Shown: positions 16,214 to 18,519 of the stretch, one piece after another
Layout: the number at the start of each line of letters is the position of its first letter
Position numbering within the stretch: position 1 is the stretch's first letter
Assembly (NCBI GenBank): GCA_001784815.1
Contig: MFSF01000011.1
Location: forward strand, 1 to 41,604
DNA: 41,604 bases
Reading direction: 5' to 3'
Origin: Candidatus Moranbacteria bacterium RIFOXYA12_FULL_44_15
GTDB lineage: Bacteria > Patescibacteriota > Minisyncoccia > Moranbacterales > UBA2206
The notes under the pieces: model-generated
What the model was told of the DNA's origin: nothing
Databases searched by the model: none
What the model saw: the letters and a program-made list of their open reading frames with translations, nothing else
Program-made: the position numbers and the translations under genes

Positions 16214-17815
16214 TTATTTTATTTTTTCCATAGCTATCGCGATTCTTTTTAAGCTTTCTGTTTTACCCAACACCCACGCGACTTCAAAGGGCGAGGGTGA
16301 CTTTTGCTCGCAAGTCAAAGCCGCGCGAAGGGGCCAAAGCAGTTTCCCACGGTCGATTTTTCCGTCTTCGTTTTTGTAATGTTTTTCGCAAGCTTCCATC
16401 AGGGATTTTTCCAAATTTTCCCGCGTCCAATCCCCTTCCGGTATATTTTCCAACACTTCTCTGGAATTGGCAAGCGAGCCGCGCAAGTCTTCGTCGGACA
16501 TATCTTTCCATCGAAGAAGATCTTTTTCGCAAGAAACTTCATCTTTGAAAAAGAAAATATTGCTCTCCCCTACCTCGGACAGTTTTGTCAAACGCTCGCG
16601 CTCGACAGTTAGAACCTTTTTCAAATATTCCTTCTTACCCTCCTCTCCCGTAACCGGGAGAGGATGTCCGGTACTCCGGACAGGAGAGGGCAACCTTTGC
16701 AAAAATTTTTCGTAGTACGGCAAAGCTTTTTCATACAAATCATCCAACGGAATTTTCTTTATCCATTGCGCGTTGATCCAGTCCAGTTTTTTGATGTCAA
16801 ACACCGCGCCGCCCTTATGGACGTGGGCAAAATCGAATTTCTCCACCAATTCTTCGAGAGTAAAAATTTCCTGTGTTTCTCCCTTGCCTGGATTCCAACC
16901 CAGCATAGCCACAAAATTAATAATGGCTTCTTTCAGATATCCTTTTTTGATATAATCTTCCACTGCCACGTCGCCTTGTCTTTTGGAAAGCTTGCTCCGG
17001 TCGAGATTTAAAAGCAACGGCAAATGAGCGAATTGCGGCGGTTCCCAGCCGAGATAGCGGTACAACAGCAAGTGTTTAGGCACACTGGAAAGCCATTCCT
17101 CGCCGCGAATAACGTGCGTTATTTTCATATCGTGGTCATCCACCACGTTAGCCAGATGGTAGGTCGGAAAACCGTCGGATTTCAAAAGCACCTGGTCGTC
17201 AACGAGATTAGTATTAAATTTCACTTTGCCCCGTACCATATCTTCAAACTCGATCGTTTCGTCTTTGGAAATTTTCATCCGAATCGTATACGGACAATTT
17301 TCCTTGAGTTTCTTGTTAACTTCTTCCGGCGTAACATTTCGCAAACAATACTGGTCATAGATGGGCGGCAATTTTTGCGCTTGTTGTTCTTTCCGCATTT
17401 CTTCAAGCCTCGCTGGTTCGCAGAAACAATAATAGGCATGTCCGTCCTTAACCAACTGTTCGGCGTGTTTTTTATAGACTTCCAATTTTTCCGACTGAAT
17501 ATATGGTCCGTGTTCCCCCGCTTCGATTATTCCCGGATAATTTTTCGAATCAACTATTTTCCCGTTTTCAAACTCAGACGCAATGTCTTTTTTAAAAACG
17601 CCTTCATCCCAATTGAGTCCTAAAAAATCCAGGGAACTTATCAAGCTTTCCACCGCACCCTCAACAAATCTTTTGCGATCGGTGTCTTCAATTTTTAACA
17701 CAAAATCACCGCCGGTTTTTCTGGCAAAAAGATAATCATACAAAGCCGTACGAAAGTTTCCAATGTGCATAAATCCCGTCGGCGACGGCGCAAACCGAAC
17801 TCTTGTCTTTTTCAT
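16214..17815 (-). CDS. gltX: Glutamyl-tRNA synthetase
   Basis: The enzyme charges tRNA-Glu, and in many bacteria tRNA-Gln for later amidation. Class I signatures: RFAPSPTGFMHIGNFRTALYD (HIGH-like) and KLSKRQGD (KMSKS-like). From ATG 17815 it is 533 aa, longer than the usual 470-490. Residues about 376-393 (RLPSPVRSTGHPLPVTGEEG) come from the palindrome at 16638-16690 in the helical anticodon-binding half. A GTG at 17827 could add MNNN, but MKKTRVRFAPSPTG is the standard start. The transposase element begins at 17828, directly upstream. Confidence 0.94.
   Translation of the reverse strand: MKKTRVRFAPSPTGFMHIGNFRTALYDYLFARKTGGDFVLKIEDTDRKRFVEGAVESLISSLDFLGLNWDEGVFKKDIASEFENGKIVDSKNYPGIIEAGEHGPYIQSEKLEVYKKHAEQLVKDGHAYYCFCEPARLEEMRKEQQAQKLPPIYDQYCLRNVTPEEVNKKLKENCPYTIRMKISKDETIEFEDMVRGKVKFNTNLVDDQVLLKSDGFPTYHLANVVDDHDMKITHVIRGEEWLSSVPKHLLLYRYLGWEPPQFAHLPLLLNLDRSKLSKRQGDVAVEDYIKKGYLKEAIINFVAMLGWNPGKGETQEIFTLEELVEKFDFAHVHKGGAVFDIKKLDWINAQWIKKIPLDDLYEKALPYYEKFLQRLPSPVRSTGHPLPVTGEEGKKEYLKKVLTVERERLTKLSEVGESNIFFFKDEVSCEKDLLRWKDMSDEDLRGSLANSREVLENIPEGDWTRENLEKSLMEACEKHYKNEDGKIDRGKLLWPLRAALTCEQKSPSPFEVAWVLGKTESLKRIAIAMEKIK
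16638..16690. repeat. CTCTCCCG-type Y-shaped palindrome inside gltX
   Basis: CCTCTCCCG-TAAC-CGGGAGAGG (16642-16663) and TGTCCGG-TACT-CCGGACA (16665-16682) are perfect hairpins, enclosed by CCCT/AGGG. It is in frame. Confidence 0.8.
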
Positions 17816-17827
17816 GTTGTTGTTCAC

Positions 17828-18519
17828 ATTCTACCCCGCTTTAGCGGGGGTTCACGTGGCTTTAGCCACACATTATCTTTTCTTAGAACTTTATCTCGCT
17901 TAGCTTCTCGATATCAACATTACCAAACCCATCTTCATTAACATCAATGACGCCGCGAATTAAGCTGTTTATCTCATTTTCTCCATATTTGCCAACCATA
18001 AAACTATAGCTGGAAAATCGATTATTCTTTAGCTTTTCAAATGTGCCGACTTCCTTATGTTTCAACAAGTTTCCTGCGATATACCCCGATATTTTCCAGT
18101 TCACTTCTTCAGAAACGACCGGAATTATCCTTCTGCTCTGCCACATTTCTTTATAGGGAACTTGATACCGCTTTCGATATTGATATGAGATACCGCCTCG
18201 AAGCTGTTGCTTTATTTTCAGCATATCCAGTCCGTTTTCCAAATAAAATTTTACGTGATAATGATTTATGGCAATGCTGAAATCGGAAATCTTGATATTG
18301 AATTTTTGTTTAATATTTCTCAGTTGGTCAAGTATGATTTCTTTTTGTTCGTCTTTGGAAAAATATGGATAATGAATAAAGGTGGAATCGGTTAGAAAAT
18401 ATATCGTATCGTCTTCCCAAAAATTTTGTCGTTGAAATTTTGCTAGTTGTTTTGCCATGCAAATCGCATCGTACTACGGGCACTAAAGTGCCCGAACCCG
18501 CCCTAAAGGGCGGTAGAAT
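17828..18519. mobile_element. 692-bp transposase element with inverted hairpin-pair ends
   Basis: Read outside-in, both ends are ATTCTA, hairpin, GTTC, hairpin. Left: CCCCGC-TTTA-GCGGGG (17834-17849) and GTGGC-TTTA-GCCAC (17856-17869). Right, on the minus strand: CCGCCC-TTTA-GGGCGG (18498-18513) and GGGCAC-TTTA-GTGCCC (18478-18493). All four loops are TTTA while all four stems differ. The only gene inside is the transposase. The layout is like a RAYT gene flanked by REP sequences. Confidence 0.75.
17883..18458 (-). CDS. REP-associated / IS200-like tyrosine transposase (Y1, HUH)
   Basis: The 191-aa protein has the Y1 transposase layout. N-terminal FLTDSTFIHYPYF is the first strand. The HUH metal site is INHYHVKFYLE (His66, His68). 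The catalytic tyrosine is probably Tyr126 in GYIAGNLLKHKE, which matches the Y-x3-N-x2-K pattern of REP-associated transposases. It would nick single-stranded DNA at hairpin-marked sites. Motifs are complete, so it may be active. The gene fills the hairpin-bounded element at 17828-18519. No SD. Confidence 0.85.
   Translation of the reverse strand: MAKQLAKFQRQNFWEDDTIYFLTDSTFIHYPYFSKDEQKEIILDQLRNIKQKFNIKISDFSIAINHYHVKFYLENGLDMLKIKQQLRGGISYQYRKRYQVPYKEMWQSRRIIPVVSEEVNWKISGYIAGNLLKHKEVGTFEKLKNNRFSSYSFMVGKYGENEINSLIRGVIDVNEDGFGNVDIEKLSEIKF

Follow-up and report, generated by a model that had tools for sequence, protein, structure and literature searches.

Here, we analysed a stretch of 41,604 nucleotides (contig MFSF01000011.1, hereafter the window) from the tiny, uncultured Candidatus Moranbacteria bacterium RIFOXYA12_FULL_44_15. 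In the window, a WecG-like gene and a GNAT gene are followed by a compact unit (17829-18518) and then by gltX. Direct reading of the unit gives a single gene for a Y1/HUH transposase flanked by two arms, which are inverted relative to each other. Each arm, read on the plus strand at the left end and on the minus strand at the right end, consists of a 5' tag, an outer hairpin, a linker and an inner hairpin (Table 1). All four hairpins carry the loop TTTA and all four stems are different, so that the two ends share only TTCTA, the loops and GTT. A preliminary description of this DNA had recognised both ends, the four TTTA loops and the unrelated but paired stems, all of which stand; its tag ATTCTA is TTCTA with an optional outer A in the family, and its linker GTTC, present at both ends in the window, is GTT followed by C, T or A in sister elements.

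Table 1 Features of the transposase unit in the window (R2, covariance model built without any sequence of this genome)
Feature	Position	Strand	Basis
5' tag TTCTA of left outer hairpin; element boundary	17829..17833	+	Direct reading; tag kept in 114 of 135 distinct arms
Left outer hairpin CCCCGC-TTTA-GCGGGG	17834..17849	+	Direct reading; R2 match 17829-17871, 53.0 bits (E 4.2e-28)
Left linker GTTCAC (family form GTTN plus 1-2 nt)	17850..17855	+	Direct reading
Left inner hairpin GTGGC-TTTA-GCCAC	17856..17869	+	Direct reading
Y1/HUH tyrosine transposase, 191 aa	17883..18458	-	Open reading frame, Pfam, profile, predicted fold
Right inner hairpin GGGCAC-TTTA-GTGCCC (7 bp if extended to 18477-18494)	18478..18493	-	Direct reading; R2 match 18477-18518, 46.5 bits (E 2.1e-24)
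Right linker GTTC	18494..18497	-	Direct reading
Right outer hairpin CCGCCC-TTTA-GGGCGG	18498..18513	-	Direct reading
5' tag TTCTA of right outer hairpin; element boundary	18514..18518	-	Direct reading; R2 match

The encoded protein matches the Pfam family Y1_Tnp (27.6 bits, cut-off 23) and, under that model's own cut-off, the NCBIfam family REP_Tyr_transpos (E 2.3e-9). Its HUH motif NHYH occupies residues 64-67, and the candidate catalytic tyrosine is Y125 within YIAGNLLKH (both in 190-aa numbering). The nearest solved structure by profile is 4ER8, the TnpA_REP of E. coli (E 3.9e-10), ahead of ISDra2 and IS608, and the same structure is the top Foldseek match of the predicted model (pLDDT 89.9), which bears out the earlier assignment of a RAYT-like protein. 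In the profile alignment, V114 takes the place of R104, the residue of E. coli TnpA_REP that makes the GTAG contact, in line with the non-GTAG tag found here. The unit thus contains a Y1 HUH transposase related to TnpA_REP, as in RAYTs; the gene is flanked by tagged hairpins with hairpin copies elsewhere in the same genome, as in REPtrons, and the elements of the family contain an inverted doublet of REP units, as in REPINs. The tag lacks the tetranucleotide GTAG (GT[AG]G). This excludes the unit from the GTAG superfamily, but not from the RAYT kind, since the published classes 2.6 and 3 are also without GTAG (PMC6006769). The inverted arms differ from the different, non-inverted hairpins on one strand that define IS200/IS605 elements, and the unit lacks the long conserved TIRs of TIRYTs.

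Pattern and covariance-model searches, together with retrieved stretches, were used to follow the arms through the whole genome. The literal frame put forward in the preliminary description, ATTCTA-N4-10-TTTA-N4-10-GTTC, recovered only the two ends of the unit and is too strict as a search pattern for the family; relaxed versions matched elsewhere as well. The pattern SNNNNCTTTAGNNNNS, for which pairing was not required, occurred at 49 places, and the clustered occurrences revealed three more elements (C32, C37 and C44) of about 90 bp, in which the same two arms surround a short filler and no gene. With the covariance model of the family (R1), exactly eight arms scored above 50 bits, corresponding to four elements, of which one contains the gene and three lack it, and the next match reached 11 bits. 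R2 recovered all eight arms at 39.5-54.1 bits (next match 5.5) and, although trained on other genomes only, gave the two arms in the window the scores listed in Table 1, with 5.5 bits for the next-best place. According to these held-out scores, the two arms are not a chance pattern. The idea that the enzyme is the engine behind the many palindromes of this genome is not supported, as the 758-kb genome contains only three other elements and the other palindromes seen there have different loops. A link to the genome's second Y1 gene (C30) was rejected likewise, because the palindromes there (GGACGTGCCACGTCC) differ in loop and tag. This second, unrelated gene (L001, G000:C30) lies among TTGGACGTGCCACGTCCAA palindromes (L001 1249-1267, 1729-1749, ~1958 and ~2880), some of them inside reading frames (RGTSK), and is perhaps another REPtron with its own repeat.

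The left arm ends 13 nt upstream of the likely ATG of gltX (17815), in agreement with the earlier remark that the element abuts the gltX start; the frame has a second possible start, a GTG at 17827. None of the 26 relatives examined has hairpins of this kind before gltX, and in several of them, e.g. L042, L047, L049 and L054, a WecG-like gene directly precedes gltX (judged by eye from translated ends). Hence, the element looks inserted before gltX, as far as gene order in other genera can tell; an exact empty site was not found among the gltX relatives compared. The preliminary description had named two observations that would speak against it, namely hairpins at gltX without a transposase in relatives and a lack of other TTTA-loop hairpin pairs: the former were absent from the 26 relatives, and further pairs occur both in this genome and in its relatives.

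Could the hairpins instead be RNA elements, i.e. terminators or 5'-UTR structures of neighbouring genes, with only a secondary likeness to REPs? In favour of this, elements of the family occupy narrow spaces between genes, many of them flanked by genes of the same direction, and surprisingly many adjoin aminoacyl-tRNA synthetase genes. We nevertheless consider this highly improbable, given that an Rfam search returned no match up to E 0.1, that mismatches in the 135 arms described below show no preference of GT(U) over AC, and that presence of the hairpins tracks the transposase, with none at gltX in the 26 relatives. A role of the hairpins as regulators of gltX was rejected because of this absence and the missing Rfam match. 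Independently of this question, about ten independent elements were found directly beside synthetase genes, more than the few per cent expected informally. The neighbours are gltX (twice), pheS/pheT, cysS, thrS (twice), lysS, ileS, alaS and hisS (L069/L071/L074, L072, L076, L114, L126, L127, L160/L202, L196, L199 and window 16214-17827), and one gene-free copy adjoins miaA. Within gltX itself, a palindromic stretch at window 16641-16682 (TCCTCTCCCGTAACCGGGAGAGGA TGTCCGGTACTCCGGACA, reading RLPSPVRSTGHPLPVTGEEGKK) resembles stretches at three other places in the genome, which suggests that a second repeat family has entered genes without breaking their frame.

Among 380 genomes of the phylum, the transposase was present in three, namely this genome (G000), G163 and G245, the latter two encoding proteins 52-54% identical to it. 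Full arms were found in all three genomes with the transposase and in one of the 377 others (G151), and four relatives without the gene (G120, G096, G094 and G088) had none. G163 and G245 each harbour one gene-bearing and two gene-free elements. Single-query scans of genome contigs, viral contigs and plasmids yielded no relatives of the transposase, but an alignment query did: in GTDB contigs, it recovered 16 relatives, all from MAGs whose names give a Patescibacteria group or simply 'bacterium'; two of these MAGs are identical with the genomes G163 and G245. Arms were detected genome-wide in 14 of these 16 genomes, while the other two have a changed loop (CAT and CTTG, respectively). Other Y1 proteins of the order (L006-L011, MARIPR-type and L009) lack such hairpins and are of a different kind.

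This distribution bears on the question whether the transposase is mobile at all. Published RAYTs have been called housekeeping-like (PMC8266576), and a domesticated enzyme whose gene stays put, with hairpins that serve the host or spread by recombination, would agree with the single gene copy in each of G000, G163 and G245 and with the vertical inheritance of some elements, which three related genomes have at identical sites. The very patchy occurrence (3 of 380 genomes), the different insertion sites in different genomes and the existence of copies that lack the gene but have the same two arms at their ends all argue against domestication, which we therefore regard as unlikely. As each well-studied genome holds one gene copy, movement of the gene-bearing unit is deduced from its differing positions across genomes.

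Several more distant proteins are accompanied by related repeats. In genome G435 (L037 and L129), a relative at 31% identity co-occurs with approximately 100 hairpins (104 model matches) that carry a TTTA loop and the tag TTCTTA and mostly stand alone; we read them as REPs of the same system at high copy number. Further away, Patescibacteria RAYTs of the YIHQNPIKH type (L019, L022 and L023) are flanked by GTAG-NN-CANNC-TTTA-GNNTG hairpins, which is the layout of Marinomonas REPs. Together with L030, L016 and L018 they form a separate clade with the tags GTAG or GGAG/TGAG and CANNC-TTTA-GNNTG hairpins, in which the residue matching R104 of E. coli is Arg in the GTAG-tagged RAYTs, Ala in L016 (GGAG) and L030 (TGAG), and Arg in L018 (GGAG). 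The published RAYT/REP literature covered here, including PMC6006769, made no mention of Patescibacteria RAYTs; since this coverage is incomplete, 'undescribed' is a provisional term.

The R1 collection comprises 135 distinct arms, in which 97.3% of the stem cells are paired, 354 with two-sided changes. The covariation score of the stems (0.660) exceeds that of shuffled arms (0.206 ± 0.010) and of stems with partners slid (at most 0.129). In 24 orthologous hairpins at the same sites of three related genomes, we counted 21 two-sided and no one-sided pair changes, a count based on hairpins that still pair and in which decayed arms (e.g. L034 and L074 left) are under-represented. Mismatches of the GT type (19) were no commoner than those of the AC type (about 18, counted from pair types), and since selection on RNA should favour GU, the constraint on the stems looks like one at the level of DNA rather than RNA. 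A permutation test of identity between left and right stems gave 7 of 44 against 9.4 expected for hairpin 1 and 22 of 45 against 21.1 for hairpin 2. The two arms thus assort independently, indicating that pairing is kept within a hairpin and not between arms, and a presumed avoidance of left-right identity to escape long palindromes was discarded. Predicted folding of the doublets was mixed, with L033 folding as four separate hairpins and L032 and L128 as long ones. At one orthologous site (L167 1322-1423 and L182 1306-1454), the inner stems GATGC and GAGGT occur on swapped sides, which suggests an internal inversion or exchange.

Compensated stems can arise from template-switch correction as well as from selection. 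If palindromes correct themselves, with replication copying one stem arm onto the other by template switching, the stem pattern would be largely mutational and would tell little about how the enzyme reads its substrate beyond its tolerance. Such an origin agrees with the dominance of two-sided changes, with the lack of one-sided intermediates at orthologous sites, with GT and AC mismatches being about equally rare and hence without a sign of wobble intermediates, and with the independent assortment of left and right stems. It leaves unexplained why the same copies keep a fixed loop and tag, why the loop varies at position 3 only, and why two genomes switched their loop system-wide. As the main account of the stems, we judge self-correction to be somewhat unlikely; it is compatible with reading by loop and tag and is not an alternative to all of it.

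In contrast to the free stems, loops and tags are held. Loops of hairpin 1 were TTTA in 124 and TTCA in six of the 135 arms (130/135) and those of hairpin 2 TTTA in 123 and TTCA in five (128/135), in a collection that is biased to TTTA loops by the model R1 used to gather it. The variation is almost only TTTA/TTCA, that is at position 3, the loop position found to be free in SELEX with Marinomonas TnpA_REP (PMC8266576). TTCTA was retained as indicated in Table 1. A less biased, loop-agnostic scan near the transposases (TTCYA followed by a 6-nt stem) returned 39 hairpins, 33 with TTTA, three with TTCA, two with CTTG and one probable chance match, while permuted tags gave 0-4 matches at 168-383 sites. 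Almost every loop of hairpin 1 is closed by a C-G pair, and almost every loop of hairpin 2 by C-G or T-A, which makes C-TTTA-G the constant core. Equally less biased are the two genomes with switched loops. In G518, the relative L079 (47% identity) is flanked on both sides by TTCTA-7 bp-CAT-7 bp with two different stems, and four CAT-loop hairpins lie beside its gene; in G522, with L083 (42% identity), six paired TTCTA hairpins have the loop CTTG on the stems CCCCGT, CCCTGT and CTCCGT, and hairpins of this type were absent from three control genomes. G518 and G522 are exactly the two relative genomes without any match to the TTTA model. The switches are system-wide and point to a code between loop and enzyme. 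As a side observation, the outer TTTA loop of 4 of the 135 distinct arms (alignment A5), including L072 2045-2119, is split by another palindrome-rich insert, such as TTTCTTGTCCGCC...GGCGGAA, as if hairpin loops were landing sites for a second repeat family.

How might such a unit work? We suggest that it is probably a divergent REPtron, whose RAYT-like nuclease is closest in fold to E. coli TnpA_REP and is directed by loop and 5' tag. It would be self-contained, with the nuclease gene between inverted arms of two tandem REP-like hairpins each. The most likely substrate of the enzyme is the strand with the order TTCTA-hairpin-GTTN-hairpin in its folded form, as could arise on the lagging-strand template. 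Contacts would be made to the TTYA loop and the tag, and a paired stem of fixed length would be needed, with little or no dependence on the stem sequence. The tyrosine of the enzyme would nick beside the arms, and the segment between them would move as single-stranded DNA, while the copies with about 20 bp of filler in place of the gene would be non-autonomous and mobilised in trans. CT is the dinucleotide cut by published RAYTs, and the tag TTCTA contains a CT. The sequences themselves show how the unit is built, its homology and its copies, the constancy of loop and tag, the compensation within stems and the joint occurrence of arms and gene; that the protein binds, cuts and moves the DNA, and what each of an arm's two hairpins does, is inferred. 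The earlier proposal that the enzyme reads shape, loop and linker rather than stem sequence fits the natural variation and the Marinomonas precedent, and for this protein it is a proposal by analogy rather than a demonstration. A further-reaching reading is possible, though we hold it only tentatively: a Patescibacteria family of loop-coded single-stranded DNA transposons, in which loop (TTYA, CAT or CTTG) plus TTCTA form the code, stems are interchangeable, loop and enzyme switch together and, unlike domesticated RAYTs, the gene-bearing unit is an active transposon. If so, specificity residues could be mapped, and the enzyme could perhaps be retargeted via changed loops.

RAYTs and REPs are widespread. 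Hairpin choice by a RAYT has been tested in detail in vitro for three systems (PMC8266576), and the family described here offers a natural experiment on the same choice, with more than 100 hairpins in which loop and tag are held while stems are free. Its sole common loop change falls at the position that SELEX left free in a distantly related system, and the two natural switches of the loop suggest a code shared by loop and enzyme. The family also extends the range of RAYT-like mobile units to Patescibacteria with their reduced genomes, where the published RAYT/REP catalogues examined do not list them. The unit is a real and well-supported RAYT/REP variant with an unusually clear natural record of recognition that would rely on loop and tag and tolerate stem changes. 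In sum, the preliminary description was right on anatomy and largely on the mode of reading, and wrong on the source of the other palindromes of the genome.

Of the known systems, TnpA_REP is a nearer structural relative of the transposase than the enzymes of IS200/IS605. E. coli TnpA_REP (4ER8) has the same HUH fold and the YI..N-KH region, but E. coli REPs are long, bulged, GTAG-tagged and of high copy number, and R104 is not kept here. The contrast with sequence-specific enterobacterial REPs drawn earlier was overstated, since the E. coli enzyme also ignores the sequence of the loop and upper stem and relies on GTAG, the bulge and a few bases of the lower stem (PMC8266576). REPINs (Bertels and Rainey 2011, PMC3116915) are likewise small non-autonomous elements with an inverted REP pair that exist alongside a RAYT lineage; there, the REP sequence is highly conserved, the doublet forms one long hairpin and compensatory changes lie in the spacer, whereas here the REP stems themselves vary and the two arms are often not mutually complementary. 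The GTAG/CGTC-tagged superfamilies (Di Nocera 2013, PMC3733652) share alternative complementary stem residues, family-specific loops and inverted dimers, but do not cover Patescibacteria or a TTCTA tag, and GT pairs are common there and rare here. Atypical REPs of TnpA_Y1 subclass 2.6 and class 3 (Quentin 2018, PMC6006769) likewise lie next to Y1 genes, have a REP-like structure and genomic copies, and lack GT[AG]G; their Y motifs (YIH[QN]NP and YV[VI][AENY]EQ) differ from the one here, mostly Y[IV]xGNLLKH, as do the host phyla. For the REPtron of Marinomonas sp. MWYL1 (REPMb, group 3 TnpA_REP; Corneloup 2021, PMC8266576), the REP is GTAG-NN-5 bp-TTTA, loop positions 1, 2 and 4 are essential and 3 is free, and most stem swaps are tolerated while mismatches cost activity. 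It shares with our unit the TTTA loop on a short perfect stem and a 5' tag at a fixed distance, and differs in its GTAG tag and single REPs, as opposed to TTCTA and two tandem hairpins per arm. The natural variation described here follows the loop and stem rules of Marinomonas, a likeness drawn at the level of the REPs.
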